Shown here: in pieces, positions 1,212-62,587 of the stretch
How positions within the stretch are numbered: position 1 is the stretch's first letter
Layout: every line of letters starts with the position of its first letter
NCBI GenBank assembly: GCA_016462625.1
Contig: JAEMSV010000005.1
Coordinates: 1-64,000 of the forward strand
Direction of reading: 5' to 3'
Source: Solirubrobacteraceae bacterium
GTDB taxonomy: Bacteria > Actinomycetota > Thermoleophilia > Solirubrobacterales > Solirubrobacteraceae
DNA length: 64,000 bases
The notes under the pieces: model-generated
What the model saw: the letters and a program-made list of their open reading frames with translations, nothing else
What the model was told of the DNA's origin: nothing
The model's database searches: none
Made by a program: the position numbers and the translations under genes

Positions 1212-1217
1212 TAGGGT
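1212..1217 (+). promoter_or_regulatory. -10 hexamer of the M42 peptidase gene
   Basis: TAGGGT ends 8 nt before the ATG at 1226, so the transcript is predicted to begin at or next to the start codon. There is no Shine-Dalgarno. The 63-bp spacer also has to hold the divergent kinase promoter. Confidence 0.5.
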
Positions 1218-1225
1218 CCACGGGC

Positions 1226-2290
1226 ATGCCGCTGCCCGACCATCTCCGCGCTCTCCTGACCGCCGCCGGCCCCTCCGGCTACGAAGCCGCCCCGGCCGCC
1301 GCGTTCGCCGCCGCCGCCAAGGCGTTCACCGACGATGTCTCCATCGACGTCATGGGCAGCGCGACCGCCCGCGTCCCCGGCACCGTCGAGGGTGCGCCCC
1401 GCCTGATCATCGTCGGGCACATCGACGAGATCGGCCTCATCGTCACGCACATCGACGAGAAGGGCTTCCTCTTCGTCGCCGGCGTCGGCGGCTGGGATCC
1501 GCAGATCCTCGTCGGCCAGCGGGTCGACGTCATGACCGACGACGGCGTGATCCCCGGCGTCCTCGGCAAGAAGCCGATCCACCTGCTCAAGCCCGACGAC
1601 CGCAAGAACGTGGCCGAGCTGAAGGACCTCCACATCGACATCGGCGCGAAGGACGGCGACGAGGCGAAGGGCAAGGTCCGCATCGGGGACGTCGCGGTGA
1701 TCACGGGCGAGCCGGTCGAGCTCCTCGGCGATCGCGTGATCTCACGTTCGATGGACAACCGGCTCGGCGCGTTCATCGCCCTCGAAGCGGCGCGGATCGT
1801 CTCCGAGGCGGGCGGCGCGGCGGGCGATGTCATCGCGGTCGGCGGCGTCCAGGAGGAGATCACCTTCGCGGGCGCGCGGACGTCGGCGTTCAGCCTGGAC
1901 CCCGACGTCGCGATCGTCGTCGACGTCACCCACGCGACCGACGCCCCGGGTATCGACGTCAAGGAGATCGGCGAGCACCCGTTCGGCAGCGGCGCGGTCA
2001 TCGAGCGCGGCAGCACGCTGCATCCGGCCGTCACCGCCGGGCTGATCGAGACCGCCGAGCGCGACGAGCTCCCGTACACCCTGGCCGCCACAGCGCGCGC
2101 GACCGGCACCGACGCGGACGCGGTCCATCTCTCTCGCGCGGGCGTCGCGACGGGCGTCGTCTCGATCCCGCTGCGGTACATGCACTCGCCGGTCGAGATG
2201 GTCCAGCTCGACGACATCGAGACGTGCGCGAAGCTCGTCGCCGCGTTCGCGCTGAGCCTGACGGCCGAGACGTCCTTCGTCCGCGGCTAG
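1226..2290 (+). CDS. M42-family aminopeptidase (glutamyl aminopeptidase/FrvX-like)
   Basis: About 354 residues, normal for cytoplasmic TET-type M42 aminopeptidases with a di-zinc/cobalt site. Visible ligand motifs, in order: GHIDEIGL (His ligand and Asp), SRSMDNRLG (bridging Asp), VQEEITFAGA (catalytic Glu pair), VVDVTHATD (Asp ligand) and the terminal MHSPVE segment (His ligand). The start at 1226 is chosen because residues before it are not conserved and because of the closely spaced -10. Tail-to-tail with the anti-sigma gene: the tetranucleotide CTAG at 2287-2290 supplies a TAG stop to both genes. Likely role: trimming of peptides released by proteolysis; substrate preference cannot be read. 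Confidence 0.9.
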   Translation: MPLPDHLRALLTAAGPSGYEAAPAAAFAAAAKAFTDDVSIDVMGSATARVPGTVEGAPRLIIVGHIDEIGLIVTHIDEKGFLFVAGVGGWDPQILVGQRVDVMTDDGVIPGVLGKKPIHLLKPDDRKNVAELKDLHIDIGAKDGDEAKGKVRIGDVAVITGEPVELLGDRVISRSMDNRLGAFIALEAARIVSEAGGAAGDVIAVGGVQEEITFAGARTSAFSLDPDVAIVVDVTHATDAPGIDVKEIGEHPFGSGAVIERGSTLHPAVTAGLIETAERDELPYTLAATARATGTDADAVHLSRAGVATGVVSIPLRYMHSPVEMVQLDDIETCAKLVAAFALSLTAETSFVRG

Positions 2291-2850
2291 ACCGGGGACG
2301 CCATCACCGGCGGAAGCGACGGCGCGGGGTCGTCGTCGTCCTCGCTCGTGATCGCCAGGGGCGCGTTCTGCGGTGCGCCCTTGGGCAGCATGAGCTCGGC
2401 GTCGATGCGGCCGTCGTCGTCGGTCGTGAACGTCCCGGCCGACCGTGGCGTGCCGTCCTGAATCGCCCACAGCTCGTAGGTCGTCCCGGCGGGGAGCTTC
2501 TCGCCGCTGCCCTTCAGGCTGACCTCGGCGTCCTGGATCTCCGCCGTCACCGTGCCCGCGGACCCGGTCAGCTGCACGGTGCGGTCGGCGTCGCCCTCGA
2601 GTCCGCCGAGCGTGAAGACGAGCGCGGCGAGCGCGGCCGCGGCGACGGCGGCGATGCCGCCGATCGCGTACGGACGGCGGCTGCGGCGGACCGCGGTGTG
2701 CGCCGCGGCGCGGTGATCGGGCAGCGCGCGGACGGCGCCGAGCGTCCGGGCACGGAGCTCGGGTGACGGTCCGTCGTCGGTGTAGTCGAGATCGCGGAGC
2801 AGCTCCTGCAGCTCGGGCTCGATCTGGAGGTCGTCGTCGTGCTCATCCAT
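2287..2850 (-). CDS. RskA-like membrane anti-sigma factor
   Basis: 187 residues. An acidic N-terminal cytoplasmic part (about 1-60) leads to one transmembrane helix (about 66-85, AIGGIAAVAAAALAALVF) and an extracytoplasmic RskA C-terminal domain containing the family signature YELWAIQDG followed by SAGTF. No Cys or HxxxCxxC zinc finger is present, so the sigma-binding part is of the non-zinc type or diverged. Start overlaps the sigma-factor stop by 8 bp, a tightly coupled arrangement that fixes the stoichiometry. Expected to hold the upstream ECF sigma factor at the membrane until regulated proteolysis; the inducing stress is unknown. Confidence 0.85.
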   Translation of the reverse strand: MDEHDDDLQIEPELQELLRDLDYTDDGPSPELRARTLGAVRALPDHRAAAHTAVRRSRRPYAIGGIAAVAAAALAALVFTLGGLEGDADRTVQLTGSAGTVTAEIQDAEVSLKGSGEKLPAGTTYELWAIQDGTPRSAGTFTTDDDGRIDAELMLPKGAPQNAPLAITSEDDDDPAPSLPPVMASPV

Positions 2851-3499
2851 GGCGGTGCTCCGAAAGGGTGGCCCGCAGGTGGCGCAGGCCGTAGAAGACG
2901 CGGGACTTCACGGTCCCGAGGGGCAGGTCGAGCCTCCGCGCGATCTCGGCCTGGGTGAGGTCCTCCTGGAAATGCAGGCGCAGGATCTCGCGCTGATCCT
3001 CCGAGAGGGTTAACAGCGCCGACTGCAGCTCGTCGCGGAGCAAGAGCTGCTCCTCCTCGGGGACGTTCTCGCCGGAGGACATCGTGGGGATGTCGGTGTC
3101 GAGTGAGACGACGGGCGCCTGCCCGGCGCGCTTGCGGCCGAGGTCGGCGGCGGCGCGGTAGGCGATCGTCATGAGCAGCGCGCCGACGGTCCCGCGCTCG
3201 GGGTCGAACCGCCCGGCGGCTCGCCACAGCCGGACGAAGGTCTCCTGGACGACGTCCTCGGCGGCGCCGCGATCGCCGAGCCGGCGCAGGCCGACGGCCC
3301 ACACGCGGCGCTCGTAGCGCTCGTAGAGCTCCTCGAGCGGCGCGCCGCGGTCGCCGGCGGCGACCCGCTGCAGGAGCGCGGCCTCGTGCTCGGCGTCGGT
3401 CACGCGGTGAAAGCGAGGAGCGGGTGCACGCTCGGAGCCTCTCAGAATGTGGAGGGCGAAGGGGGCCGGTATGGGGGGTGCGAGCTGAGACACACCCAT
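2843..3499 (-). CDS. ECF-type RNA polymerase sigma factor (SigK/SigL-like)
   Basis: About 218 residues from the ATG at 3499, which has GGAGAG about 8 nt upstream, supporting this start. Sigma-2 region: LEELYERYERRVWAVGL, then AAEDVVQETFVRLWR. Sigma-4 region: LSEDQREILRLHF, then the HTH LTQAEIARRLDLPLGTVKSR. Roughly 40 residues before sigma-2 are proline-rich and not conserved. Encoded directly upstream of, and overlapping with, an RskA-like anti-sigma factor, the arrangement of the SigK/RskA class, in which the pair is often autoregulated. Targets cannot be deduced here. Confidence 0.93.
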   Translation of the reverse strand: MGVSQLAPPIPAPFALHILRGSERAPAPRFHRVTDAEHEAALLQRVAAGDRGAPLEELYERYERRVWAVGLRRLGDRGAAEDVVQETFVRLWRAAGRFDPERGTVGALLMTIAYRAAADLGRKRAGQAPVVSLDTDIPTMSSGENVPEEEQLLLRDELQSALLTLSEDQREILRLHFQEDLTQAEIARRLDLPLGTVKSRVFYGLRHLRATLSEHRHG

Positions 3500-3561
3500 A
3501 CTTCGTCTCTCCGGGTTCTGGGGGTTCAGCATCTCGGCACTCGGCGTGCGAGGATGGCGCC

Positions 3562-4260
3562 ATGGGAGCCGGTCACCTCCTGCTGTTCGACATCGACGGG
3601 ACGCTGCTCCTGCGCGCCGCGGCCGCACACAAGGACGCACTGCACGACGCGCTCTGCGAGGTTCACGGGCTCGGCCCCGACCAGATCGGCCAGGTTCCGA
3701 CGGCCGGCCGCACGGACCTGGAGATCGCGCGGCACCTCCTGCTCGAAGCGGGTGTTCCCGCCGACCACATCGACGCGCGCAACGGCCTCGTGCGGGAGGC
3801 GGCGATCGCGGCGTACGCGCGTCTCTGCCCGGCCGATCTCACCGACACCGTCGCCCCCGGCATGCGGGAGCTGGTCTCCGGGCTGGCCGAGCGCGATGAC
3901 GTCCACCTTGCGCTCGTCACCGGGAACCTGGAGCCGATCGCGCGGCTGAAGCTCTCGCGCGCGGGGCTCGGCCCGTTCTTCCCGCCCGGCCAGGGCGGCT
4001 TCGGCTCCGACGACGAGGACCGCACCCAGCTGCCCGCGGTCGCCCGCGAGCGCGCGACCCGCAACGGCCTGCCCTTCCCGCGAGAGCGGACGATCGTCAT
4101 CGGCGACACGCCGCTCGACATCCTCTGCGCGCGGGCCGACGGCGTGCGGTGCGTCGCCGTCACGACGGGTCCTCACAGTGCCGCGGACCTGGCCGCGGCC
4201 GACGCGGTGGCCGGCGACGCGAAGGGCGTCGGCGACGCCCTTCGCGCGCTCGGCGTCTAG
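3562..4260 (+). CDS. HAD-superfamily hydrolase, phosphoglycolate-phosphatase-like
   Basis: 232 residues. HAD motif I is DIDGTLL near residue 9, with the nucleophile Asp and the general acid Asp two residues later. Motif II is TGN (LALVTGNLEP). Motif IV is VIGDTPLDILCA, with metal-binding Asp residues. A helical cap domain sits between motifs I and II. The best match is the Gph/beta-phosphoglucomutase-like branch, cytoplasmic and Mg2+-dependent; the physiological phosphoester is not determinable. ATG at 3562 has a weak GAGGA/GAGGAT stretch 6 nt upstream that could be read either as a Shine-Dalgarno or as a leaderless -10. Divergent from the sigma factor with a 62-bp spacer. Confidence 0.85.
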   Translation: MGAGHLLLFDIDGTLLLRAAAAHKDALHDALCEVHGLGPDQIGQVPTAGRTDLEIARHLLLEAGVPADHIDARNGLVREAAIAAYARLCPADLTDTVAPGMRELVSGLAERDDVHLALVTGNLEPIARLKLSRAGLGPFFPPGQGGFGSDDEDRTQLPAVARERATRNGLPFPRERTIVIGDTPLDILCARADGVRCVAVTTGPHSAADLAAADAVAGDAKGVGDALRALGV

Positions 4261-4332
4261 ACACGCTGGCGGGCGGTCACGCTGAACGTTCTGTGCCCTG
4301 ACTTATGGAGTCGTAATGCCCCAAGGGCTGGA

Positions 4333-4338
4333 TACACT
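4333..4338 (+). promoter_or_regulatory. -10 hexamer of the HEAT-like gene
   Basis: TACACT with 9 nt to the ATG at 4348; no Shine-Dalgarno and no good -35 at 16-18 bp. Confidence 0.5.
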
Positions 4339-4347
4339 CGGAGTCCG

Positions 4348-4884: not shown

Positions 4885-4915
4885 CCGCCTACCGTCAGCG
4901 GGCCCGCGGCAGCGC

Positions 4916-4945: not shown

Positions 4946-4962
4946 CGGCCCTGCTCAGCGAC

Positions 4963-5718
4963 CTAGTTCGAGCACTTGGCCGAGCCCTTGCCGCTCTCGG
5001 ACTTGTCGTCGCGGTAGGTGACCTTGACCTCGAACGGCAGCTTGCCGCCCGAGCAGCCGGCGGTGTTGACGAAGCCGACGGTCTTGTCGCCGATCTTCTT
5101 CTTGGCATCGACCTTCAGCGAGAACTCGGTGACCGTGGTGAAGACGCCCGGCACCGGCTGCTGCAGGTTCTCGGGCACCTCGTTGAGCAGGGAGATCCCG
5201 TAGGGCTCCTCACCGCTCTGGATCTTGCCGGTCAGCACGGAGTCGATCCGCAGGGGCGTCGTGCCCTCGATCAGCATGAAGAGCCGGTAGCCCTTGCCGT
5301 TGTAGGCGGTCAGCTTGAGCTGTTCGACGATGCCGCCCGCGGCGCCGCCGACGACCTTGCCGGAGCCGATCCTCGCGCTCGACGAGCACTTGTGGTCGCG
5401 GACGTCGTCCTGCGTGCAGGACGGGAACGCGACCGGGTTGAAGAGCAGCGGGTAGGGCAGCTTCGCCTCGATGGACTTCGTCGCGCCCGATCCGTCGGCC
5501 GCGCCGACATTCGCGCCGGTGATCTTGGCGCTGAAGTTGAACGTCGCGGCCTTCGGCGCAGCCGGCGTGCCGACTTTGCTCGGGCTGACCGTGACGTTCA
5601 TGTTGACCGCTGCGTGCGCTGACCCGGCGCTGAGAGCGGTGATGGCCACGACTGTGGCGGCAAGCGCGCGAGCACGCGCTGCAGTGGAGTACTCCCCCCG
5701 GAGGAACATGGTTCGCAC
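4963..5718 (-). CDS. Secreted protein of unknown function
   Basis: 251 residues. The N-terminus has a Sec signal peptide: basic start, hydrophobic run ALAATVVAITALSAGSAHA, likely cleavage after AHA. The mature part is Ser/Thr/Gly/Lys-rich and beta-rich in appearance, with four to five Cys (FPSCTQDDV, DHKCSSS, TAGCSGG, SAKCSN) that could form disulfides outside the cell. No catalytic motif recognised. The start is GTG at 5718 with AGGG close upstream, or ATG at 5709; both give the same mature protein. It lies 16 bp downstream of the DsbA-like gene in the same direction, so the two may be co-transcribed, which would fit a thiol protein next to a disulfide-containing secreted protein (inference). 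Confidence 0.65.
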   Translation of the reverse strand: MRTMFLRGEYSTAARARALAATVVAITALSAGSAHAAVNMNVTVSPSKVGTPAAPKAATFNFSAKITGANVGAADGSGATKSIEAKLPYPLLFNPVAFPSCTQDDVRDHKCSSSARIGSGKVVGGAAGGIVEQLKLTAYNGKGYRLFMLIEGTTPLRIDSVLTGKIQSGEEPYGISLLNEVPENLQQPVPGVFTTVTEFSLKVDAKKKIGDKTVGFVNTAGCSGGKLPFEVKVTYRDDKSESGKGSAKCSN

Positions 5719-5734
5719 CGTACCCTATGTACGG

Positions 5735-6595
5735 TTACGCACGTGTCAGTTCGGTCCAGAATGCGTCGGTCCCGGACGGGTGTTCGACGGCGTCCTCCCC
5801 AATCAGCCGCTCCCGCGCGGTCTCGCGATCGACTCCGGCAACGGCCGCGACCTCTGCCGTGGCGAGGGGCTCACCGGCCCACGTGAGGATCTCGTTGACC
5901 GTCTCCGGATCGGGCCGCTGCGCGAGTGCCGGGCCGCAGTTGGCGAGCACGACCTCGTAGACCTCGATCGGGTTGAAGCCCGGAATCACTGCAGATGGGC
6001 CGTCCTCGTCGCCCAGCACGTAGGTCGGGCACGTGTACCGGCGGCCGCCCTCCCAGTTCGCGAGCCGGCGGTCGAGCGCGGCGGCTGCGGGGAGCGGATG
6101 GCGTGCGGCATCCTTGTCGGCCGCGAGGGCCGCCTGGATCCCCGGTTCCGTGATCCAGCCGGCGACGGTCGCGGGGTCGAGCCCGGCCTTCGTGATCGCG
6201 GCGTCGATGGCGTCGGGCTCGTCGATGACCGTGGTCGTCGTCATCTGGGTGAGGCGCAGGGCGCGCAGCACGCGCTGCGCTGCATCCTCACCGGCCTTCT
6301 CCCGTGCAGCGACCACGGCCGCACACGCCGGCGCGGTGGCCGCGAGGTGCGAGCGCAGGGCCGTGTCGAACGGCATGCCCGGGTCCTTGCTCAGCCGCTC
6401 ATAGCCGGTCTGGACCATCTCGTTCGTCAGGCCCTTGGCCTCGTAGTCCGCCCGCGACTCGCTGAGCACAACCATGCGCGTCCGCCACGCGATCTGGTCC
6501 CCGTAGACCCACTGCAGCCGGCGCCGGATCGGCTCGGCCGAATACGCGAACGGGCAGTTCGGGTCGGTGAAGTGCTCGATCGAGATGGACGCCAT
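5735..6595 (-). CDS. DsbA-family (thioredoxin-fold) oxidoreductase-like protein
   Basis: 286 residues. The N-terminal strand and active-site loop read FTDPNCPFAYSAEP, the DsbA/FrnE/HCCA-isomerase position. The motif is CPFA, so the second redox Cys of CxxC is absent and only a monothiol mechanism or a non-redox isomerase/transferase role is possible. The cis-proline segment appears late (YTCPTYVLGDE), followed by a helical C-terminus. No signal peptide, so cytoplasmic. ATG at 6595; immediately upstream lies a long perfect palindrome that also contains the -10. Likely same transcription unit as the secreted protein downstream. Could be an FrnE-like or glutathione-S-transferase kappa-like enzyme. 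Confidence 0.75.
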   Translation of the reverse strand: MASISIEHFTDPNCPFAYSAEPIRRRLQWVYGDQIAWRTRMVVLSESRADYEAKGLTNEMVQTGYERLSKDPGMPFDTALRSHLAATAPACAAVVAAREKAGEDAAQRVLRALRLTQMTTTTVIDEPDAIDAAITKAGLDPATVAGWITEPGIQAALAADKDAARHPLPAAAALDRRLANWEGGRRYTCPTYVLGDEDGPSAVIPGFNPIEVYEVVLANCGPALAQRPDPETVNEILTWAGEPLATAEVAAVAGVDRETARERLIGEDAVEHPSGTDAFWTELTRA

Positions 6596-6597
6596 GT

Positions 6598-6624
6598 CGC
6601 AACCACGCTAGCAGCGTGGTTGCG
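6598..6624. repeat. Perfect 12-bp-arm inverted repeat between ettA and the DsbA-like gene
   Basis: Arms CGCAACCACGCT and its complement flank a 3-nt centre. It fills most of the 36-bp gap between the ettA stop and the DsbA-like start and includes the candidate -10 (TAGCGT on the minus strand). It can be the ettA terminator (no T-tract follows) or an operator for the DsbA-like gene; position alone cannot decide. Confidence 0.7.
6605..6610 (-). promoter_or_regulatory. -10 hexamer of the DsbA-like gene
   Basis: TAGCGT on the minus strand, 9 nt before the ATG at 6595, lying in one arm and centre of the palindrome 6598-6624. Confidence 0.4.
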
Positions 6625-8296: not shown

Positions 8297-8302
8297 AGGA
8301 TA
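8297..8302 (-). promoter_or_regulatory. -10 hexamer of ettA
   Basis: TATCCT on the minus strand, 9 nt upstream of the ettA ATG; no Shine-Dalgarno. Confidence 0.5.
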
Positions 8303-11005: not shown

Positions 11006-11011
11006 TACATT
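11006..11011 (+). promoter_or_regulatory. -10 hexamer of the J-like/TPR gene
   Basis: TACATT, 6 nt before the ATG at 11018, within the 32-bp gap after the GGDEF-EAL gene. Confidence 0.55.
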
Positions 11012-12754: not shown

Positions 12755-12760
12755 AGCCTA
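12755..12760 (-). promoter_or_regulatory. -10 hexamer of the VOC gene
   Basis: TAGGCT on the minus strand with 7 nt to the ATG at 12747; it lies in the short gap after the MFS gene. Confidence 0.5.
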
Positions 12761-16094: not shown

Positions 16095-16114
16095 CCTTTG
16101 ACCGCGGGCGGGGA

Positions 16115-16120
16115 TACTCT
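16115..16120 (+). promoter_or_regulatory. -10 hexamer of nucS
   Basis: TACTCT, 8 nt before the GTG at 16129; no Shine-Dalgarno. Only 20 bp separate it from the preceding stop. Confidence 0.55.
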
Positions 16121-16128
16121 CCCCGCCC

Positions 16129-16800
16129 GTGCGTCTGATCGTCGCCCGCTGCGAAGTCACCTACACCGGCCGGCTCACCGCCGTCCTGCCCGAGGCGCTG
16201 CGCCTGCTGATGCTGAAGGCCGACGGCTCGGTGATGGTCCACGCGGACACCGGGGGCTTCAAGCCGCAGAACTGGATGACCCCGCCGACGGTCATCGAGG
16301 AGTCCGACGACCACATCGTCGTCCGGAAGTTCGCGGGCAAGACCGAGGACCGGCTCGACATTCGCATCGCCGAGGTCATCTCCGATGTGACCCACGACAT
16401 GGGCGAGGCGGCGGAGCTCGAGAAGGACGGCGTGGAGGCGCATCTACAGGAGGCGCTCGCCGCTGCGCCGCAGTGGTGCGGCGAGGGCTTCCGCCTGGTG
16501 CGCCGCGAGTGGCCGACCGACATCGGCCCCGTCGACCTCATGTGCCGGGACGAGGACGACGGCTGGATCGCGGTCGAGATCAAGCGCATCGGCACGATCG
16601 ACGCCGTCGAGCAGCTCACCCGCTACCTCGAGCGCATCAGGCAGGACCCGGCGATGGCCGAGGTCCGCGGCATCCTCGCGGCACAGGCCATCAAGCCGCA
16701 GGCCCGCGTGCTTGCCGAATCGCGTGACATCGGGTGGGTCGAGGTCGATCTCGCAGTGGTGCGAGGCGACCGCGAGCCGGACCTCACGCTGTTCACGTAG
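16129..16800 (+). CDS. nucS: Mismatch-specific endonuclease EndoMS/NucS
   Basis: 223 residues, the normal actinobacterial NucS length. N-terminal DNA-binding/dimerisation beta domain (MRLIVARCEVTYTGRL to about 105) and a C-terminal RecB-like nuclease domain with the active site running GPVDLMCRDEDDGWIAVEIKR; the Asp, Glu and Lys of the D-x(n)-ExK motif are present. NucS cleaves both strands at G-T, G-G and T-T mismatches in actinobacteria that lack MutS/MutL, working with the beta clamp. The C-terminal DLTLF is close to the clamp-binding peptide seen in family members. GTG start with a leaderless-type promoter. Single gene followed by a hairpin. Confidence 0.95.
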   Translation: MRLIVARCEVTYTGRLTAVLPEALRLLMLKADGSVMVHADTGGFKPQNWMTPPTVIEESDDHIVVRKFAGKTEDRLDIRIAEVISDVTHDMGEAAELEKDGVEAHLQEALAAAPQWCGEGFRLVRREWPTDIGPVDLMCRDEDDGWIAVEIKRIGTIDAVEQLTRYLERIRQDPAMAEVRGILAAQAIKPQARVLAESRDIGWVEVDLAVVRGDREPDLTLFT

Positions 16801-20317: not shown

Positions 20318-20323
20318 ATTATA
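20318..20323 (-). promoter_or_regulatory. Consensus -10 (TATAAT) of the arsR-sulP operon
   Basis: TATAAT on the minus strand with 7 nt to the GTG at 20310, in the AT-richest stretch of the window. Directly upstream is TGAA-N6-TTCA (20328-20341), a candidate ArsR operator. Confidence 0.6.
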
Positions 20324-20380: not shown

Positions 20381-20419
20381 ACCTGACGGCTGTCAGGTAA
20401 CTTCCTGACGCATGTCAGG
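20381..20419. promoter_or_regulatory. Twin dyad operators over the tetR promoter and start codon
   Basis: CCTGAC-N4-GTCAGG occurs at 20382-20397 and again at 20404-20419, centres 22 bp apart (two helical turns). The two sites flank the -10 hexamer TAACTT at 20398-20403, and the second contains the ATG at 20412. Strong candidate for autorepression by the TetR encoded here. Confidence 0.75.
20398..20403 (+). promoter_or_regulatory. -10 hexamer of tetR
   Basis: TAACTT, 8 nt before the ATG at 20412, sandwiched between the two dyads. Confidence 0.6.
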
Positions 20420-22220: not shown

Positions 22221-22226
22221 AACCTA
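22221..22226 (-). promoter_or_regulatory. -10 hexamer of the MBL gene
   Basis: TAGGTT on the minus strand, 6 nt before the ATG at 22214. Divergent from the crotonase promoter 33 bp away. Confidence 0.5.
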
Positions 22227-22258: not shown

Positions 22259-22264
22259 TAGGGT
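22259..22264 (+). promoter_or_regulatory. -10 hexamer of the crotonase gene
   Basis: TAGGGT, 6 nt before the ATG at 22271. Confidence 0.5.
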
Positions 22265-23120: not shown

Positions 23121-23149
23121 TTGTTCGCAGGGCCTTCGGTGCCGACAAT
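23121..23149 (+). promoter_or_regulatory. Promoter of the first S51 peptidase gene
   Basis: TTGTTC at 23121-23126, a 17-bp spacer, GACAAT at 23144-23149, then 6 nt to the ATG at 23156. Best complete -35/-10 pair in the window. Confidence 0.65.
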
Positions 23150-30707: not shown

Positions 30708-30713
30708 ATCGTA
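30708..30713 (-). promoter_or_regulatory. -10 hexamer of the second tetR
   Basis: TACGAT on the minus strand, 6 nt before the GTG at 30701; used to choose the start. Confidence 0.45.
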
Positions 30714-30747
30714 AACGACGCCGTTCATCTTTTGTGGCGCGCCTCCG

Positions 30748-31170: not shown

Positions 31171-31439
31171 TCGCTCAAATCTACGGGCATCCGGGCCACG
31201 GCCATGTCGACCTTCGTGCCGCGGAAGGGCACGCCCTCGTCGTCCAGCAGCGCGCGCTGGCGGTCGCCCTGGGTCAGGGAGCCGTCGGCGCGGACGACCC
31301 GCCACCACGGAATCGTCGGGTCGTCGGCGTATCGCAGCACCGTCCCGGCGAACCTCGGTGCGCCTGGCGACACGTCGCCGTAGCTGCGCACGAAGCCCTC
31401 CGGGATCGCCCGGATACGCCGGACGACCGCACCGCTCAG
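31167..31439 (-). CDS. MGMT/Atl1-family alkyltransferase-like protein (start uncertain)
   Basis: About 90 residues. VVRRIRAIPEGFVRSYGDVS is the family HTH opening (key part IPEGFVRSYGDV) and PWWRVVRADGS occupies the place of PCHRV in alkyltransferases. The acceptor Cys is replaced by Trp, the mark of ATL proteins that bind O6-alkylguanine and flip it for nucleotide excision repair. No in-frame ATG, GTG or TTG lies near the expected N-terminus. The CTG at 31439 gives a protein of family length, so a non-canonical start or a sequence error is implied. Coupled to yjbQ by GTGA. Confidence 0.7.
   Translation of the reverse strand: MSGAVVRRIRAIPEGFVRSYGDVSPGAPRFAGTVLRYADDPTIPWWRVVRADGSLTQGDRQRALLDDEGVPFRGTKVDMAVARMPVDLSE
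31178..31183 (-). promoter_or_regulatory. Possible internal -10 for yjbQ
   Basis: TAGATT on the minus strand, 7 nt before the yjbQ GTG but inside the ATL-like coding sequence. Confidence 0.35.
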
Positions 31440-31447: not shown

Positions 31448-31453
31448 TAGCAT
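31448..31453 (+). promoter_or_regulatory. -10 hexamer of the membrane-protein gene
   Basis: TAGCAT, 10 nt before the ATG at 31464; overlaps the promoter/start region of the divergent ATL-like gene. Confidence 0.45.
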
Positions 31454-32258: not shown

Positions 32259-35200
32259 CTAGCGCTCGCCCGGCGTCTTCGCCGGGTACAGCGAGACGGG
32301 CACCGACAGGTCGAGCGCGGTGCGGATGATCCGCGACTGCTCGCTCGCGTGGGCGACCGGGTAGCCCTCGCCCGGTGAGGCGCGCTCGGGCCGGCCGATG
32401 TAGCCGAACCGCAGCCGCTCGGGGAGGACCTGCATGAGGCGCGGGAACATGTGCGCGCGAGCGCCCATGTTGCGCGGCTCCTCCTGGACCCACACGACCT
32501 CTTCGAGGTTCGGGTAGCTCTCGATGAGCTCCAGGATCTGGCCCTCGGGGAACGGATAGAGCAGCTCGACGCGGCCGACGGCCAGGCCTTCCTGGTCCTG
32601 CCGGTCGGCGTGCCCGACGAGGTCGTAGTAGATCTTGCCGGTGCAGAGGACCAGGCGCTTGACCTTGTCGTGCTCCACGCGCGGCTCGCCGAGGACCGGG
32701 AAGAACTTCGTCTCCGAGAGGTGCTGGATCCGGTTGGTCGCCTGCGGCAGGCGCAGGAGCGACTTCGGGGTCATGATGACCAGCGGGCGCTGCTTGGCGA
32801 TGCGCGCCTGACGGCGGATCAGGTGGAAGTACTGCGCGGGCGTCGTGAGGTTCGCGACGCGGATGTTGCCCTCCGCGGCGAGCTGCAGGAAGCGCTCCAT
32901 GCGGCCGGAGGAGTGTTCCGGACCCGAGCCCTCGTAGCCGTGCGGGAGCAGCAGCGTCAGGCGCGTGGTCTGGCCCCACTTGGCCAGGCCGCTGATGATG
33001 AACTGGTCGATGATGACCTGGGCGCCGTTGACGAAGTCGCCGAACTGGGCCTCCCAGAGGACCAGGGTCTCGGGCGCTTCCGCGGAGTAGCCGTATTCGA
33101 AGCCCAGGCACGCCTGCTCGGAGAGCGGCGAGTTGTGCATCTCGAACGGGGCGAGCGCGCCCGGCAGCGACTGCACCGGCGAGATCGTGCGTCCGGTCTT
33201 GTGGTCGTGCAGGACGAGGTGGCGCTGGCTGAACGTGCCGCGCTCGACGTCCTGGCCGGTCAGGCGGATCGGCGTTCCCTCGGTGAGCAGCGACGCGAAC
33301 GCGAGCGCCTCGGCGTGCGCCCAGTCGATGCCGCCTTCGTCACCCAGCGCCTCGCGCTTCTTCTCGAGCTGCTTGATGAGCTTCGGGTGGACGTTGAAGT
33401 CGTCCGGCACCGCCAGCATTTCCTGGTTCAGCGAGCGCAGGCGATCGGCGTCGACCGCCGTCGGGACGTCCGGGCTCGGCGAGCGGTCGAGCTGGTACTC
33501 GCCCGTCTGCTGGCTCGGCTCGCCGGCTTCGGCGGCCGCCTTGATCTTCGCCTTCAGGGCCTGGTGGAGCTCGGTGAGGTGGTCCCAGATCTCGGCGGTC
33601 CGGGCCTCGACCTCCTGCTTGGTCACCACGCCGTCGACGATGAGCTTGTCGGCCCACAGCTGCGAGACGCGCTTGTGCTGCTTGATCAGCGCGACCATCT
33701 CGGGCTGCGTGTAGGCGGGCTCGTCGGCCTCGTTGTGCCCGAAGCGGCGATAGCCGATGAGGTCGATGACGACGTCGTGGCCGAACTCCTTGCGGAACGC
33801 CAGCGCGAGCCGGACGGCGCTGATACACGCCTCCGGATCGTCGGAGTTCACGTGGAGGATCGGGATGTCGAAGCCCTTCGCCAGATCGGACGCCCAGTGG
33901 GTGGAGCGGGAGTCCTCCGGGTCGGTGGTGAAGCCGACCTGGTTGTTCTGGATCAGGTGGATCGTGCCGCCGACGTTGTAGCCGTCGAGCGCCTGGAGGT
34001 TCAGCGCCTCCGCGACGACGCCCTGGCCCGGGAAGGCCGCGTCGCCGTGCAGGACGACCGCGACGGCCGCGGCGTTGTCGCGCGTGGCGTGCGGGCCACG
34101 GCGGTTCGTCTGGGCCGCGCGGGTGGCGCCCTCGACGACCGGGTGGACGAACTCGAGGTGCGACGGGTTGCTCTCGAGGTTGACGAGGATCGACTCGTCG
34201 TTGGCGAGCTGGTAGCTGCCTTGGGCGCCGTGGTGATACTTGACGTCGCCGGTGCCGCCCTGCGGGATCGTCGTGATCGCCTCGAGCGTGGAGGCGCCCT
34301 CGAACTCCGCGAAGATGTTGTCGTACGGACGGCCGAGGTTGTGCGCGAGCACGTTGAGGCGGCCGCGGTGCGCCATGCCCACGACGACCTCGTGCGCGCC
34401 GTTGCCGGCCGAGAGCTGGATGAGCTCGTCGAGCATCGGCACGGTCATGTCGAGGCCCTCGATCGAGAACTGCTTCTGGCCGAGGTAGGCCTTGTGCATG
34501 AAGCGCTCGAACGCGTCGACCTTGATGAGGCGGCCGAGCAGCCACGTCTTCTCTTCGCTGGTCAGCGGCGTGCGGAACGCGCCGGTCTCGATCTTCTCGC
34601 GCAGCCAGGTCCGCTGACGGTGGCTGGCGATGTGCTCGATCTCGTAGGCGATCGTGCCGCAGTAGACGTTGCGCAGGTGCGGCAGCGCGTCGGCGACCGT
34701 ATCGCCGGGCACGCCGACGCGGACGATCTTCGCCGGGATCTGGCGCATGAGCTGCGGGGTGAGGCCGAGCGGCTCGGGATCGAGTGACGGGTCGCCCTCG
34801 GGCTCGGTGCCCAGCGGGTCCAGGCGCGCGGCCAGGTGGCCGAAGGTCCGGTACGCCTTGACGATCGCCGTCGCGGCCTGCACGGCCTGGAGCAGCTCCT
34901 CGTCGGGCGCGATGCCGGCCGACGGCGCGGGCGCGGCAACGGCGGCGCCGGTCTGGATCTGCGGGGTGGGCGCCTCGGGCTTCGGGCCGATGGCCGCGCC
35001 GATGTCGGAGAACAGGCTCTCGTAGAACTCGTGCTCGCCCTGCAGGTACTCCTCGACGAGCTTCAGGAACCGGCCGGATTCCGCGCCCTGGATCACCCGG
35101 TGGTCGTACGTCGAGGTCATCGACATGACCTTCTCGGCGCCGATGGCCTCGCCGATCCCGCCGAGGCCGACGGGGTAGGCGATCGAGCCCGTCGCGACGA

Positions 35201-36536
35201 TGGTGCCGTTGCCGGTCATCAGGCGCGGGACCGACGCGACGGTGCCGATGCCGCCCGGGTTCGTCAGCTGGATGTTCGCGCCCGTGAGGTCGTCGGCGGT
35301 CAGCTTGTTCTCACGCGCGCGGGCGATGAGGTCGTTGAACGCGTCGAGGAAGCCCTGGAACGGGAGGCGGCCGGCGTCCCGGATGACCGGCACCATGAGG
35401 GTGCGCGAGCCGTCCTTCTTCTCGACGTCGACGGCGATGCCGAGGTTGACCGCGCCGTCGTCGATGCGGAACGGCTTGCCGTCGCGCTCCTCGAAGTGGT
35501 GGGCCATGACCGGCATCTGCTCGGTCGCGGCACGGGCGATCGCGTAGGCGATCAGGTGCGTGAAGGAGACCTTCTGGCCGGCGGCCTTCAGCTGCTTGCG
35601 GCGGCCGTCCATCTGGGTGACGGTGAGGGTGCGGAAGGAGGTCGCCGTCGGGATCTGGCGGCTCTCGTCCATGTAGCGCGCGAGCATCGCCGCGCCGCCC
35701 TTGAGCTGGGTGGCCTTGGCGCCCGAGGCGGCAGCGGCTCCGCCGCCATCCTTCGCGGCGAGGACGTCGTCCTTGACGATGCGCCCGCCGGGGCCGGTGC
35801 CCGCGATGCCGGCGACGTCAACGCCCTCGACGGCGGCGACGCGCGCGGCGACGGGGGTGATCGCAGCGTCGCCTGCGACGGCGGGCGTCGTGGGCGCCGA
35901 GGTCGGGGCCTCAGGCGCGGCGGCGGGGGCCGAAGCGGATGCAGACCCGCCCGCCCCGACGGCCATCCGGGCGATGACCTGGCCGACCGTGACCGTGTCG
36001 CCCTCTTCGGTCAGGATCTCGGTGATCGTGCCCGCGCCGGGGGCGGGAAGCTCCATGTCGACCTTGTCGGTCGACAGCTCGACGATCGTGTCGCCGTCGG
36101 CGACGGTGTCGCCGACCTTGACGGCCCACTCGAGGATGGTGCCCTCGGTGACCGACTCGCCGCCCGCGGGGGTGACGATGTCGACGATTTCGGCGGGGGC
36201 GTCCGACGGGGCCTCCGGCGCGGCGATCGCGCCGTTGCCATGCCCGTTGCCGGAGCCGTTCGCGGCGGCTGCGGGGGCGCCGCCGTTCGTGGAGATCTCG
36301 GCGAGCAGCTGTCCGACGGTCACGGTGTCGCCCTCGGCGACGTGCACCTTCACGAGGGTGCCGGACTCGGGTGCGGGTACCTCAGCGTCCACCTTGTCGG
36401 TGGAGATCTCGACGAGCGTCTCGTCGGCGGCGACCGTGTCGCCTTCGCCCTTGTGCCATTCGAGCACGGTGCCTTCCGACACCGACTCCCCCATCTGGGG
36501 CATGACGACCTGGATCGTCGTATTGACAGCTGCCAT
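32259..36536 (-). CDS. kgd: Fused 2-oxoglutarate dehydrogenase E2-E1 (Kgd/OdhA type) with two lipoyl domains
   Basis: 1425 residues from the ATG at 36536, which lies 4 nt after the DUF3817 stop. Order: lipoyl domain 1 (about 8-82, ISTDKVD with Lys48), a Gly/Asn linker, lipoyl domain 2 (about 118-192, LSTDKVD with Lys158), peripheral-subunit-binding domain (about 226-260, ITPVAARVAAVEGVDV), E2 acyltransferase core (about 280-520, YDHRVIQGAESG with His479), then the ThDP-dependent E1 (from about 570, GMAHRGRLNVLAHN and VKYHHGAQGS). Mycobacterial Kgd and corynebacterial OdhA, as I know them, lack lipoyl and binding domains and borrow the lipoyl arm of AceF; this chain could be self-sufficient apart from E3. 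TCA-cycle step 2-oxoglutarate to succinyl-CoA. Last gene of a Nudix-DUF3817-kgd unit. Confidence 0.95.
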   Translation of the reverse strand: MAAVNTTIQVVMPQMGESVSEGTVLEWHKGEGDTVAADETLVEISTDKVDAEVPAPESGTLVKVHVAEGDTVTVGQLLAEISTNGGAPAAAANGSGNGHGNGAIAAPEAPSDAPAEIVDIVTPAGGESVTEGTILEWAVKVGDTVADGDTIVELSTDKVDMELPAPGAGTITEILTEEGDTVTVGQVIARMAVGAGGSASASAPAAAPEAPTSAPTTPAVAGDAAITPVAARVAAVEGVDVAGIAGTGPGGRIVKDDVLAAKDGGGAAAASGAKATQLKGGAAMLARYMDESRQIPTATSFRTLTVTQMDGRRKQLKAAGQKVSFTHLIAYAIARAATEQMPVMAHHFEERDGKPFRIDDGAVNLGIAVDVEKKDGSRTLMVPVIRDAGRLPFQGFLDAFNDLIARARENKLTADDLTGANIQLTNPGGIGTVASVPRLMTGNGTIVATGSIAYPVGLGGIGEAIGAEKVMSMTSTYDHRVIQGAESGRFLKLVEEYLQGEHEFYESLFSDIGAAIGPKPEAPTPQIQTGAAVAAPAPSAGIAPDEELLQAVQAATAIVKAYRTFGHLAARLDPLGTEPEGDPSLDPEPLGLTPQLMRQIPAKIVRVGVPGDTVADALPHLRNVYCGTIAYEIEHIASHRQRTWLREKIETGAFRTPLTSEEKTWLLGRLIKVDAFERFMHKAYLGQKQFSIEGLDMTVPMLDELIQLSAGNGAHEVVVGMAHRGRLNVLAHNLGRPYDNIFAEFEGASTLEAITTIPQGGTGDVKYHHGAQGSYQLANDESILVNLESNPSHLEFVHPVVEGATRAAQTNRRGPHATRDNAAAVAVVLHGDAAFPGQGVVAEALNLQALDGYNVGGTIHLIQNNQVGFTTDPEDSRSTHWASDLAKGFDIPILHVNSDDPEACISAVRLALAFRKEFGHDVVIDLIGYRRFGHNEADEPAYTQPEMVALIKQHKRVSQLWADKLIVDGVVTKQEVEARTAEIWDHLTELHQALKAKIKAAAEAGEPSQQTGEYQLDRSPSPDVPTAVDADRLRSLNQEMLAVPDDFNVHPKLIKQLEKKREALGDEGGIDWAHAEALAFASLLTEGTPIRLTGQDVERGTFSQRHLVLHDHKTGRTISPVQSLPGALAPFEMHNSPLSEQACLGFEYGYSAEAPETLVLWEAQFGDFVNGAQVIIDQFIISGLAKWGQTTRLTLLLPHGYEGSGPEHSSGRMERFLQLAAEGNIRVANLTTPAQYFHLIRRQARIAKQRPLVIMTPKSLLRLPQATNRIQHLSETKFFPVLGEPRVEHDKVKRLVLCTGKIYYDLVGHADRQDQEGLAVGRVELLYPFPEGQILELIESYPNLEEVVWVQEEPRNMGARAHMFPRLMQVLPERLRFGYIGRPERASPGEGYPVAHASEQSRIIRTALDLSVPVSLYPAKTPGER

Positions 36537-36540: not shown

Positions 36541-36876
36541 CTAAGAAGCCACTCTAGCGCTCGATTGTTTCGGACGCGTGCCCTGTCCAGACCCAGCATC
36601 CCGACTTCTCCGGGCGAACTCCCAGCTGCCGATGAACGGCCCGATTCCGCCCAGCACCGCGACCGCCGTGGCGAGCCGCAGGTCGATGACCCTCAGGGCG
36701 AGCGCGATGATGCACGCGATCGACATGAGGATCCAGCCGACGCCGTGCGTCAGCCCAAAGATGAACTCGGCGCCGGACAGGCCCGGCACGAGCCAGACGA
36801 CCAGCAGCGCGATGTACACGGCGGAGTGGGTGAAGGAGGCCCACTTCAGCCGCTCGAAGGTGAGGATGCGCGTCAC
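36541..36876 (-). CDS. DUF3817 small membrane protein
   Basis: 111 residues, three membrane helices. RLKWASFTHSAVYIALLVVW and GLTHGVGWILMSIACIIAL fit the DUF3817 pattern of conserved polar residues between helices. GTG at 36876 overlaps the Nudix stop as GTGA. Placed between the Nudix gene and kgd in one transcription unit. No biochemical role known to me. Confidence 0.78.
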   Translation of the reverse strand: MTRILTFERLKWASFTHSAVYIALLVVWLVPGLSGAEFIFGLTHGVGWILMSIACIIALALRVIDLRLATAVAVLGGIGPFIGSWEFARRSRDAGSGQGTRPKQSSARVAS

Positions 36877-42155: not shown

Positions 42156-42184
42156 GCGGGCCGGAGGCTACGGCCTGCGGCGGA

Positions 42185-42565: not shown

Positions 42566-42571
42566 GCGGTC

Positions 42572-42596
42572 GAGGCTACCCACGCCGGGTAGCCTC
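42572..42596. promoter_or_regulatory. Inverted-repeat divergent promoter of gloA-like and ubiB-like genes
   Basis: GAGGCTACCC-N5-GGGTAGCCTC is a perfect 10-bp inverted repeat. Each arm contains TAGCCT reading outward: minus-strand hexamer 42573-42578 is 7 nt from the ATG at 42565, and plus-strand hexamer 42590-42595 is 13 nt from the ATG at 42609. Transcription both ways from overlapping -10 elements. Confidence 0.6.
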
Positions 42597-42608
42597 CGCA
42601 TCGAGTCC

Positions 42609-43991
42609 ATGAGCAAGGACGACAAGATCCCCACCGGGCGGCTGCGCCGCTCGTCGCAGGTCGGTCGCCTCGCCGCCACGCAGGCGGCCAAGCAGGTGGG
42701 CACCCGCGCGGCCAACGTCGTCCGCAGCGACGAGGCCGGCCGCGCCGCGCTCGACCGCCGCCAGCTCGAGACCGCCGAGCAGATCGTCGCCGCGCTCGGG
42801 ACGATGAAGGGCGCCGCGATGAAGCTCGGGCAGATGCTGAGCTTCATGGACGTCGGCCTCGTTCCCGAGGAGTTCCGCGAGGACTTCCAGGCCAAGCTCG
42901 CCGAGCTGCGCGACGCTGCCCCGAAGGTCTCCTTCAAGGAGATGCGCAAGGTCATCGAGGGCGAGTACGGCGAGAAGCTCGACGAGGTCTTCGAGACATT
43001 CGATCCGGTGCCGGTCGCGGCTGCCTCGATCGGACAGGTCTACAAGGCGCGCCTGCACGACGGGCGCGACGTCGCCGTGAAGGTCCAGTACCCCGGCATC
43101 GGCGCCGCGGTCCGTGCCGACATGCAGAACCTCGGGTTGATCCTGCGCCTGATGAAGGGCGTCGCGCCCGGCCTCGACCCGAAGGCCCTCGGCGAGGAGA
43201 TCCGCGAGCGCATCGACGAGGAGCTCGACTACGAGCTGGAGGCGAGCAACCAGCGCACGCTCGCCCGCATCTACGACGGCCACCCGTTCATCATCGTCCC
43301 GAAGGTCATGACCGACCTCTCGCACGAGAAGGTCATCGTCAGCGAGTTCGTCTCCGGCCGCGGCTTCGAGGAGTGCAAGCAGCTCCCCGACGAAGAGCGC
43401 AACCGCATCGGCGAGATCATCTTCCGCTTCTACTTCGGCTCGATGTACCGCCACCACCAGTTCAGCGGCGATCCGCATCCGGGCAACTCGATGCTGCTCG
43501 ACGACGGGCGGATGGCGTTCATCGACTTCGGGCTCTTCAAGCGGCTCCCCAAGGAGGTCGCCGACTTCGAGCTGACGACCCAGCGGCTGGGGATCGAGCG
43601 GCGCGGCGACGAGCTGATCGAGCACCTCACCGAGGGCGGTTGGATCACCGGGAGGAACGCGTACGAGCCCGAGGAGATCCTGTACCAGTTCGACGAGTTC
43701 GTCGGCTGGTACACGAAGAACGAGCCCATCGAGCTCACCCCCGAGTACGCGACTCGGGTGATGCTGGAGATGAGCGATCCGCGGTCCTCGTTCTTCGGGA
43801 AGATGCGCCACGAGACGCTGCCGCCCGACCACCTCTTCGGCCGCCGGCTGGAGACGCTCACGCTCGCCGTGCTCGGGCAGCTGCGTGCGACGGCGAACTG
43901 GGGCGCGATCGCCCGCGAGTGGATCGACGGCAGTCCGCCGGTCACCGAGCTCGGCCGCGAAGAGGCCGAGTTCTACGCCGGCGTCTCATGA
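42609..43991 (+). CDS. ABC1/AarF/UbiB-family atypical kinase
   Basis: 460 residues. KxGQ-type motif AAMKLGQMLSFM, Ala-rich loop VAAASIGQVYKA, VAIK-equivalent DVAVKVQYPG, catalytic loop FSGDPHPGNSMLL and metal loop FIDFGLFK are all present. Members act as ATPases or kinases in isoprenoid-lipid and quinone metabolism at the membrane; in actinobacteria menaquinone is the likely context. The stop overlaps the VTT gene as ATGA. Confidence 0.93.
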   Translation: MSKDDKIPTGRLRRSSQVGRLAATQAAKQVGTRAANVVRSDEAGRAALDRRQLETAEQIVAALGTMKGAAMKLGQMLSFMDVGLVPEEFREDFQAKLAELRDAAPKVSFKEMRKVIEGEYGEKLDEVFETFDPVPVAAASIGQVYKARLHDGRDVAVKVQYPGIGAAVRADMQNLGLILRLMKGVAPGLDPKALGEEIRERIDEELDYELEASNQRTLARIYDGHPFIIVPKVMTDLSHEKVIVSEFVSGRGFEECKQLPDEERNRIGEIIFRFYFGSMYRHHQFSGDPHPGNSMLLDDGRMAFIDFGLFKRLPKEVADFELTTQRLGIERRGDELIEHLTEGGWITGRNAYEPEEILYQFDEFVGWYTKNEPIELTPEYATRVMLEMSDPRSSFFGKMRHETLPPDHLFGRRLETLTLAVLGQLRATANWGAIAREWIDGSPPVTELGREEAEFYAGVS

Positions 43992-45714: not shown

Positions 45715-45742
45715 ATTATCGGCAAGTCGATGCGCATCTCAA
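45715..45742 (-). promoter_or_regulatory. Promoter of the secreted glycosidase-like gene
   Basis: On the minus strand TTGAGA (45742-45737), a 16-bp spacer, GATAAT (45720-45715), then 7 nt to the GTG at 45707. Confidence 0.6.
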
Positions 45743-47233: not shown

Positions 47234-47239
47234 AAAGTA
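47234..47239 (-). promoter_or_regulatory. -10 hexamer of pyk
   Basis: TACTTT on the minus strand, 7 nt before the GTG; no Shine-Dalgarno. Confidence 0.55.
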
Positions 47240-52944: not shown

Positions 52945-52950
52945 AATCTA
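52945..52950 (-). promoter_or_regulatory. -10 hexamer of the hypothetical-aminotransferase-M29 operon
   Basis: TAGATT on the minus strand, 7 nt before the ATG at 52937. Confidence 0.55.
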
Positions 52951-52973: not shown

Positions 52974-53007
52974 GATTCACCACTCACGGCAACGCGATGC
53001 ATACGGT
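52974..53007 (+). promoter_or_regulatory. Promoter of FG-GAP gene 1 with conserved GATTCACCA box
   Basis: GATTCACCA at 52974-52982, 19 bp, then TACGGT at 53002-53007, then 6 nt to the ATG at 53014. Same box and same 19-bp spacing as before FG-GAP gene 2. Confidence 0.6.
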
Positions 53008-55935: not shown

Positions 55936-55941
55936 AGCCTA
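55936..55941 (-). promoter_or_regulatory. -10 hexamer of the SnoaL-MBL gene
   Basis: TAGGCT on the minus strand, 7 nt before the ATG at 55928. Confidence 0.55.
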
Positions 55942-56203: not shown

Positions 56204-56209
56204 AGTCTA
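56204..56209 (-). promoter_or_regulatory. -10 hexamer of the small membrane protein gene
   Basis: TAGACT on the minus strand with 7 nt to the GTG at 56196; it overlaps the lipoprotein stop codon. Confidence 0.5.
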
Positions 56210-56696: not shown

Positions 56697-56702
56697 TAGC
56701 CT
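56697..56702 (+). promoter_or_regulatory. -10 hexamer of the MBL-fold gene
   Basis: TAGCCT, 8 nt before the GTG at 56711. Confidence 0.5.
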
Positions 56703-57715: not shown

Positions 57716-57739
57716 TTCCTCTAATCTCCTGTGCCAACG

Positions 57740-58639: not shown

Positions 58640-58678
58640 AATCCGGCTCGTTTCAGCCCCTCCGGGTGAACGGAATTC

Positions 58679-58721: not shown

Positions 58722-58764
58722 TGCGGCCGCGCTCGGGTCCCCCGACCCACCCCCAGGAGGCCGT

Positions 58765-60504: not shown

Positions 60505-60514
60505 GAGCGAGCCG

Positions 60515-62242: not shown

Positions 62243-62247
62243 GCGGT

Positions 62248-62538
62248 TCAGTCCGCGGCGGGGTCGCGCTCGGGGGTGAGCCCCTCGGCGACCATCGGCC
62301 GCCCGTTGAGCTCGTACCGCACGTCGACGCTGTGGTGCTCGCGGTAGGTGCCGATGCCCCAGGCGCCGAGGAACCAGCGCCAGAACCCGAGCTTGCCCTC
62401 CTGCACGAGCGACCGCGTGAACCGCAGCTCGCCCTCGGCGAGGTCGTAGTCGACCCCTTCCTGCTGGGGCACGCCGTTGATGTAGACCGACAACGGAGGC
62501 TGGACCTGTGCGGGCAGGCGAATGACGGAACCGGTCAC
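62248..62538 (-). CDS. Small conserved-type protein of unknown function
   Basis: 96 residues, beta-rich by eye (PPLSVYINGVPQQEGVDYDL, ELRFTRSLVQEGKLGFWRWF). VYINGVPQQEGVDYDL resembles the tail/receptor-binding strand pattern VNGVLQxxxxDY found in many small proteins, but no family is certain. GTG start with TACGCT 6 nt upstream. Likely cotranscribed with the MFS gene 5 nt downstream. Confidence 0.6.
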   Translation of the reverse strand: MTGSVIRLPAQVQPPLSVYINGVPQQEGVDYDLAEGELRFTRSLVQEGKLGFWRWFLGAWGIGTYREHHSVDVRYELNGRPMVAEGLTPERDPAAD

Positions 62539-62544
62539 GGTCGG

Positions 62545-62550
62545 AGCGTA
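62545..62550 (-). promoter_or_regulatory. -10 hexamer of the small protein-MFS operon
   Basis: TACGCT on the minus strand, 6 nt before the GTG at 62538. Confidence 0.5.
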
Positions 62551-62581
62551 TCCGGGGTGGGGTGGGGGCCGGTGTCCTCGC

Positions 62582-62587
62582 TATCGT
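62582..62587 (+). promoter_or_regulatory. -10 hexamer of the YgjP-like gene
   Basis: TATCGT, 8 nt before the ATG at 62596. Confidence 0.5.

Follow-up and report, generated by a model that had tools for sequence, protein, structure and literature searches.

The window, as we call the whole stretch of 64,000 nucleotides (nt) analysed here, has a G+C content of 71.3% and comes from a Solirubrobacteraceae genome (Thermoleophilia, Actinomycetota). The closest relatives of its UbiB-like protein (42609-43991) are also Solirubrobacteraceae (L001, 90%; Svornostia abyssi, 89%), and the Svornostia orthologues of window proteins are collinear over about 75 kb of the Svornostia stretch 1.40-1.50 Mb. Our subject is the hexamer TANNNT, which stands a few nucleotides before the start codons of genes on both strands (Table 1). 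A preliminary interpretation of the letters, the sequence-only reading, had taken such hexamers as the mark of leaderless transcription in at least 28 genes.

TANNNT before the start codons of the window

Genes were called with a codon model that is blind to upstream signals (coding-only starts), and 56 window genes were counted. Refined starts combine the coding score with the upstream signal and are partly circular, since the hexamer itself is used. With coding-only starts, TANNNT stood 6-9 nt before the start of 20 of the 56 genes, compared with 0.74 on average and at most 4 in 1000 dinucleotide shuffles; at 6-14 nt the count was 24 of 56 (shuffles: mean 1.68, maximum 6). Within the window, the comparison with shuffled upstream sequence, which the sequence-only reading had proposed as a genome-wide check, gave a clear enrichment. 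None of the 776 internal in-frame start codons of the window has TANNNT at 6-9 nt.

Refined starts placed TANNNT at 6-14 nt in 27 of the 56 genes, close to the 28 claimed, with six genes at a spacing of 6 nt, nine at 7, five at 8, three at 9 and one each at 10, 12, 13 and 14; the outermost hexamers, at 1212 and 62587, coincide with the limits that had been set for the signature. A Shine-Dalgarno (SD) match of at least 5 nt was found in 0 of the 27 TANNNT genes and in 9 of the 29 others (Fisher p 0.002). The claim that hexamer genes lack an SD site therefore held, while its companion, that the remaining genes tend to have AGGAGG-type sites, is true of only a third of them. Both sequence marks of TA-led leaderless genes, TANNNT at a fixed short distance beyond chance and no SD site, are thus seen in the window.

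All eleven hexamers that had been cited as examples are present at the places and distances given for them, and nine are TANNNT, the exceptions being GACAAT at 23144 and GATAAT at 45720. Behind these two the coding-only caller prefers downstream starts (23207 and 45617), yet Svornostia has GACAAT-ATG and GATAAT-GTG at the same spacings, which favours the starts originally chosen. Because both recur there with the same letters and spacing, a count of TANNNT alone is probably slightly low. The GTG start of pyruvate kinase at 47226 is likewise favoured: the protein from this codon matches profiles from their first positions and with higher scores, whereas the coding-only start at 47166 leaves the first ~20-27 profile positions unmatched.

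The hexamer is also conserved between species. Among 46 orthologue pairs of window and Svornostia (after one match was dropped as a duplicate), it was present in both members of 19, in neither member of 22, in the window only in 4 and in Svornostia only in 1 (p 7e-8). It is kept in Svornostia for 19 of 23 orthologues of window hexamer genes, and most of the letters flanking it differ. About half of the window's genes probably carry a promoter right before the start codon, with messages that would begin at or near the first codon.

Table 1. Hexamers and related features of the window, with their distance to the start codon of the gene behind them. Except for the two marked rows, hexamers are TANNNT and belong to the 27 genes counted with refined starts.
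Feature	Position	Strand	Relation to gene and remarks
TAGGGT	1212..1217	+	8 nt before ATG 1226, aminopeptidase-like; TANNNT at 7 nt in the Svornostia orthologue
TACGGT	5717..5722	-	7 nt before ATG 5709; Svornostia orthologue has TANNNT at 7 nt
TAGCGT	6605..6610	-	9 nt before ATG 6595, DsbA-like; within inverted repeat AACCACGCT-GCT-AGCGTGGTT, mostly kept in Svornostia
TATCCT	8297..8302	-	9 nt before ATG 8287, EttA
TACATT	11006..11011	+	6 nt before ATG 11018
TAGGCT	12755..12760	-	7 nt before ATG 12747
TACTCT	16115..16120	+	8 nt before GTG 16129, NucS; in loop of GGGCGGGG/CCCCGCCC
TATAAT	20318..20323	-	7 nt before GTG 20310, ArsR-type regulator
TAACTT	20398..20403	+	8 nt before ATG 20412, TetR-type regulator; between GTCAGG and CCTGAC
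TAGGTT	22221..22226	-	6 nt before ATG 22214
TAGGGT	22259..22264	+	6 nt before ATG 22271, enoyl-CoA hydratase family
GACAAT (not TANNNT; outside the 27)	23144..23149	+	6 nt before ATG 23156; identical letters and spacing in Svornostia
TACGAT	30708..30713	-	6 nt before GTG 30701; uncertain start, placed at 30728 by coding signal only
TAGATT	31178..31183	-	7 nt before GTG 31170; not found at called start of Svornostia orthologue
TAGCAT	31448..31453	+	10 nt before ATG 31464; short leader predicted
TAGAGT	36551..36556	-	14 nt before ATG 36536; short leader predicted
TAGCCT	42165..42170	-	9 nt before ATG 42155, exopolyphosphatase-like
TAGCCT	42573..42578	-	7 nt before ATG 42565, glyoxalase family; left half of divergent pair
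TAGCCT	42590..42595	+	13 nt before ATG 42609, UbiB-like; 11 nt from left hexamer, forms right half of divergent pair
Divergent intergenic region, 43 nt	42566..42608		back-to-back palindrome AGGCTACCC/GGGTAGCCT; homologous regions of relatives often have a single shared ANNNTANNNT
GATAAT (not TANNNT; outside the 27)	45715..45720	-	7 nt before GTG 45707; identical letters and spacing in Svornostia
TACTTT	47234..47239	-	7 nt before GTG 47226, pyruvate kinase
TAGATT	52945..52950	-	7 nt before ATG 52937
TACGGT	53002..53007	+	6 nt before ATG 53014
TAGGCT	55936..55941	-	7 nt before ATG 55928; not found at called start of Svornostia orthologue
TAGACT	56204..56209	-	7 nt before GTG 56196
TAGCCT	56697..56702	+	8 nt before GTG 56711, metallo-beta-lactamase fold
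TAATCT	57722..57727	+	12 nt before ATG 57740; short leader predicted
TACGCT	62545..62550	-	6 nt before GTG 62538; divergent with 62596
TATCGT	62582..62587	+	8 nt before ATG 62596, YgjP-like

Elsewhere in the window a tRNA-Tyr was predicted at 33942-34022 (+), inside a gene of 1425 amino acids on the other strand (32259-36536). At gathering scores no Rfam family matched anywhere in the window, this site included, so that the tRNA call is probably false.

Anatomy of the proposed promoters and regional share

The spacing between hexamer and start codon was profiled with coding-only starts in a sample of relatives (80 loci, L001-L080, with 1112 usable genes). A single gene had TANNNT at 5 nt, and the counts from 6 to 13 nt were 72, 115, 53, 55, 38, 25, 14 and 12, over a background of about 3.5 genes per position further upstream; the tail fades by about 16 nt. 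The hard edge between 5 and 6 nt is what leaderless transcription predicts, because an RNA that starts 7 nt past the -10 hexamer holds the whole start codon only from a spacer of 6 nt onwards. Spacers of 9 nt and more, which form the tail, imply short leaders of a few nucleotides rather than none, a qualification to the sequence-only reading.

Svornostia was sampled twice, in a syntenic stretch of 100 kb with 93 genes and in ten other stretches totalling 400 kb with 329 genes. Gene context was compared with refined starts, in the window, the loci and the second of these samples (Svornostia 400 kb). As expected of leaderless genes, which are mostly operon-proximal or single, TANNNT was frequent where the upstream neighbour lies on the opposite strand (loci 283/440; window 16/24; Svornostia 400 kb 31/104) and rarer at same-strand gaps below 15 nt (41/242, 0/9 and 11/93, respectively). 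It was also common at same-strand gaps of 15-59 nt (75/152, 9/11 and 15/40).

No -35 hexamer was seen about 17 nt upstream of the -10, where no position from -26 to -14 exceeded 0.06 bits in 81 and 398 aligned promoters; a -35 was dropped from the signature, which in this respect departs from sigma-70-type promoters that have one. An adenine right after the hexamer was about tenfold rarer at start-codon promoters (4/480) than at TANNNT further upstream (17/203; p 1e-6; loci, Svornostia and window), and averaged 0.2% over 143 gene families. A preference for ATG at spacers of at least 9 nt and for C at -1 at 6-8 nt was striking in the raw counts and weak by family, and is not claimed: with genes collapsed by family, comparing 6-8 with 9-14 nt gave p 0.07 for ATG and 0.11 for C at -1, and comparing with non-TA genes gave 0.07 for C at -1 and 0.047 for ATG at 9-14 nt.

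Inverted repeats centred on the hexamer with a stem of at least 6 occurred in 4 of 24 window cases (0.78 expected), in 6 of 68 in Svornostia 400 kb (2.87 expected) and in 3 of 32 in the syntenic sample (1.27 expected). The excess is significant in the window and weak in the Svornostia samples, and a general rule was abandoned in favour of local observations. The hexamers of nucS (repeat at 16106-16128) and of the DsbA-like gene (6595-6620) lie in such repeats, with a same-strand gene 34-36 nt upstream; these repeats could be operators, or terminators fused to promoters. At 20392-20409 a perfect 6-bp inverted repeat, GTCAGG-TAACTT-CCTGAC, frames the -10 hexamer of the TetR-type gene and is likely a candidate autoregulatory operator of that gene.

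The share of TANNNT genes differs between regions. With coding-only starts and spacings of 6-9 nt it was 20/56 in the window, 24/93 in the syntenic Svornostia stretch and 43/329 in the ten others (Fisher p 0.006 for the syntenic against the other stretches, 0.0001 for the window against them); with refined starts and 6-14 nt it was 27/56, 34/93 and 74/329. TANNNT genes are about twice as frequent in the syntenic stretch as in the other parts of Svornostia sampled, so the window is no proxy for a genome average. The high share that the sequence-only reading remarked upon is real within the window and regional in nature; genome-wide extent is not supported. Counted over the whole Svornostia genome without gene calls, TANNNTN{6,8}ATG occurred 696 times against 239 for the reversed pattern. 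The excess of 90 per Mb is the third highest among 53 low-control genomes of the phylum (median 47), selected by eye from 296 for a control density below 60 per Mb; at least one further genome, G269, also falls below this density (excess 84 per Mb; symmetric pattern, described below, 9 against 0) and is not among the 53, which leaves the rank of Svornostia unchanged.

A symmetric element between divergent genes

Among 301 divergent gene pairs from the window, the Svornostia stretches and the loci, 113 have TANNNT before both refined starts. The gap from hexamer to hexamer peaks sharply at -2, in 29 of the 113 pairs and 12 of 42 pair families (14 of 51 pairs with coding-only starts). This overlap creates a ten-base symmetric element, ANNNTANNNT, in which one TA is common to both strands and which leaves 22-30 nt between the start codons. 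The relatives thus have the sequence geometry of bidirectional promoters, whose divergent -10 elements share bases and whose transcription start sites (TSSs) are 7-25 bp apart.

Whole genomes gave the same picture. In 33 of them, taken from the 80 loci (mostly the longer ones), the pattern CATN{6,9}ANNNTANNNTN{6,9}ATG matched 227 sites and its reversed control 20. Hexamers separated by 2 nt were found 16 times (control 1), and the overlap TANNNTA, of 18-bp geometry, was rejected as the main shared form with only 67 sites (control 28), a rarity that fits the avoidance of adenine after the hexamer. Twenty ANNNTANNNT sites were inspected individually, 11 in Solirubrobacter deserti and 9 in Svornostia, where the reversed control predicts about 2. 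Those at which coding-only starts match on both sides include the pairs MatE-family transporter/unnamed protein and DHDPS-family/glycosyltransferase, and a TetR regulator whose neighbour has a SnoaL-like match slightly below the Pfam cut-off. In the 53 phylum genomes the symmetric pattern occurred 117 times against 37 (99 against 35 without the three known Solirubrobacterales, G001, G101 and G273) and correlated with the leaderless excess (Spearman 0.41, p 0.002), so that it seems not to be confined to Solirubrobacterales; the five genomes above 7 Mb among the 53 had no excess (10 against 10).

In the two divergent pairs of the window that were compared with counterparts in relatives, the promoters are still separate. 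The glyoxalase-family and UbiB-like genes (42565-/42609+) have two back-to-back TAGCCT hexamers in the 43 nt between their starts, with an implied TSS distance of about 36 bp, beyond that of a shared -10. The hexamers of the second pair, 62538-/62596+, are 31 nt apart, and a fused counterpart of it exists in L025. The first pair belongs to a series with fused members in relatives. A divergent neighbour stands beside 57 of the glyoxalase genes, one from the window and 56 from loci. Of these, 15 are fused, with a hexamer gap of -2, one has a gap of -7, ten have gaps of 5 to 11 and nine have gaps of 18 or more, and 22 are without TANNNT on one or both sides; the start codons are 18 nt to 90 nt and more apart across species. 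A protein tree built by a quick method requires at least 7 changes between the fused and the separate state, a count that is silent on direction. The right-hand partner often differs, and among the sequences listed (gaps below 90 nt) only L013 is fused with the window's partner. One member of the sample, L002, lies on a contig labelled Bifidobacterium breve (a metagenome-assembled genome). It has a UbiB-like protein with 86% identity to that of the window, next to the same glyoxalase-family neighbour, and the label looks wrong.

Interpretation and comparison with known systems

Position, sequence, lack of an SD site, conservation between species and the sharp cut-off at 6 nt all fit the leaderless reading, and we hold it very likely that TANNNT serves the primary sigma factor (sigma-A) as its -10 element, giving leaderless or near-leaderless mRNAs, and that divergent genes of relatives share one such element. 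That the hexamer might instead act in the RNA, as an A/U-rich ribosome contact within a real leader, would agree with its place, about where an SD site would lie, and with the lack of SD sites in hexamer genes. A translation signal does not account for the hard edge at 6 nt or for the rarity of the hexamer directly behind another gene. The same TA base pairs moreover serve both strands in divergent pairs, which a DNA element explains simply, and in mycobacterial nucS the TSS lies at the start codon (PMC12649562); we consider such a signal very improbable. Chance, or an artefact of start choice in which starts were picked beside a common hexamer, is scarcely credible: the partial circularity of the refined starts would invite it, and the coding-only counts, the empty set of internal starts and the whole-genome Svornostia count made without gene calls reject it. 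Several observations weigh against the promoter model. Besides the circularity just mentioned, 29 of the 56 window genes are without TANNNT, and 20 of those 29 also lack an SD match of at least 5 nt; Svornostia 400 kb shows a weaker operon contrast; the trends for a pyrimidine at -1 and for ATG, which would have helped to place the TSS, are weak after family collapse; and among the 20 shared-element sites inspected, coding-only starts match both sides in only 7, one side in 8 and neither in 5.

For the symmetric sites an alternative is that they are mainly repressor operators, palindromes that overlap promoters rather than shared -10 elements. We think this unlikely. To type the sites, 38 of 66 matched sites were used, G324 being omitted whole together with five G297/G298 sites that resemble repeats of listed ones. 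All three inner positions pair, as in a full palindrome, in 6 of the 38 and in 1 of 29 pairs from the loci; pairing at the innermost position is seen in 20 of 38 (13 expected) and 16 of 29, one pair includes a TetR-type regulator, and hexamer-centred inverted repeats are over-represented in the window, all of which is what operators would show. The other two inner positions, however, pair near expectation (16 and 14 of 38, with ~12 and 15 expected), the excess of long stems is weak in Svornostia 400 kb, and the part that recurs is A...TA...T at a fixed distance to both start codons. Since pairing of the inner letters hardly exceeds expectation at any but the innermost position, most symmetric sites are not full operator palindromes.

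Taken together, these results favour a model in which TANNNT would position RNA polymerase to start on the start codon or a few bases from it, and would do so without a recognisable -35. A spacer of 6-8 nt would yield a leaderless mRNA and one of 9-14 nt a leader of a few nucleotides, which ribosomes would initiate without an SD site; genes immediately downstream of another gene, together with a smaller part of the remaining ones, would use SD sites or have no signal found here. Divergent genes could sit back to back because such a promoter reaches no further than the start codon, and in relatives two -10 elements appear to have merged repeatedly into one ANNNTANNNT, which could fire a leaderless mRNA either way because its central TA serves both strands. 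We thus infer sigma factor, TSS position, translation mode and two-direction use from observed sequence, position, conservation and geometry. It is reasonably probable that in divergent pairs of Solirubrobacterales with 22-30 nt between their start codons ANNNTANNNT makes up the entire promoter and almost all of the intergenic region, that such pairs arise repeatedly when two separate start-codon promoters shrink and fuse, and that polymerase binding in either orientation makes one of two leaderless mRNAs. If true, a fused element would impose mutually exclusive firing on neighbouring genes. Promoters that touch start codons may thus allow two divergent genes to run from one shared -10, and the glyoxalase series would be a natural experiment in promoter fusion.

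Neither leaderless genes nor promoters with a shared -10 are new as kinds. The leaderless trait is well documented in Actinobacteria, where its share averages 19.2% and ranges from 2.3 to 29.8% (PMC3160421). The TA-led genes described there resemble ours in having TANNNT ~10-12 bp before the start, read as the -10 box of leaderless genes, and only operon-proximal genes were argued to be able to use it (PMC3160421). Compared with that range, the window reaches 36% (coding-only, 6-9 nt) to 48% (refined, 6-14 nt); because Svornostia outside the syntenic stretch gives 13% (43/329) to 22% (74/329), the order is not shown to exceed it. Our counts measure the trait for parts of a deep actinobacterial class, while the usual counting is genome by genome, and they caution that the leaderless share taken from a single region can be double the value for other parts of a related genome. 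In literature outside most subscription journals we found no report on leaderless genes in Thermoleophilia (Conexibacter, Solirubrobacter) and no treatment, by title or abstract, that joins leaderless genes with bidirectional or divergent promoters; an earlier description is possible for both.

The nucS gene of Mycobacterium smegmatis offers a direct parallel to the window gene at 16129. Rapid amplification of cDNA ends (5'-RACE) placed its 5' end at the first G of the GTG start codon, with a TANNNT -10, no -35 found and 46 bp to the upstream gene (PMC12649562). The window gene shares the GTG start, the TANNNT -10, the lack of a -35 and a short upstream gap (34 nt); the TSS was mapped in M. 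smegmatis, whereas the window gene is known from sequence alone. In Deinococcus-Thermus, another phylum, a -10 motif likewise adjoins the open reading frame, in ~30% of frames on average, and the words bidirectional and divergent do not occur in the main text of that account (PMC12340547).

Bidirectional promoters of E. coli and Salmonella resemble ANNNTANNNT in that -10 elements on opposite strands share bases (PMC12825309, PMC10268837). The common TSS distances listed for E. coli are 18, 10 and 23 bp (PMC12825309), and ANNNTANNNT corresponds by arithmetic to 23 bp, which is among the common distances (PMC12825309, PMC10268837). There the commonest is 18 bp, by arithmetic that of TANNNTA, whereas in Solirubrobacterales the 23-bp form prevails. 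What appears to be new here is that in Solirubrobacterales a single symmetric -10, a compact form of promoter types already known, is often common to the two genes of a divergent pair; in contrast to E. coli and Salmonella, each of the two products would be a leaderless mRNA, with the start codons flanking the element.

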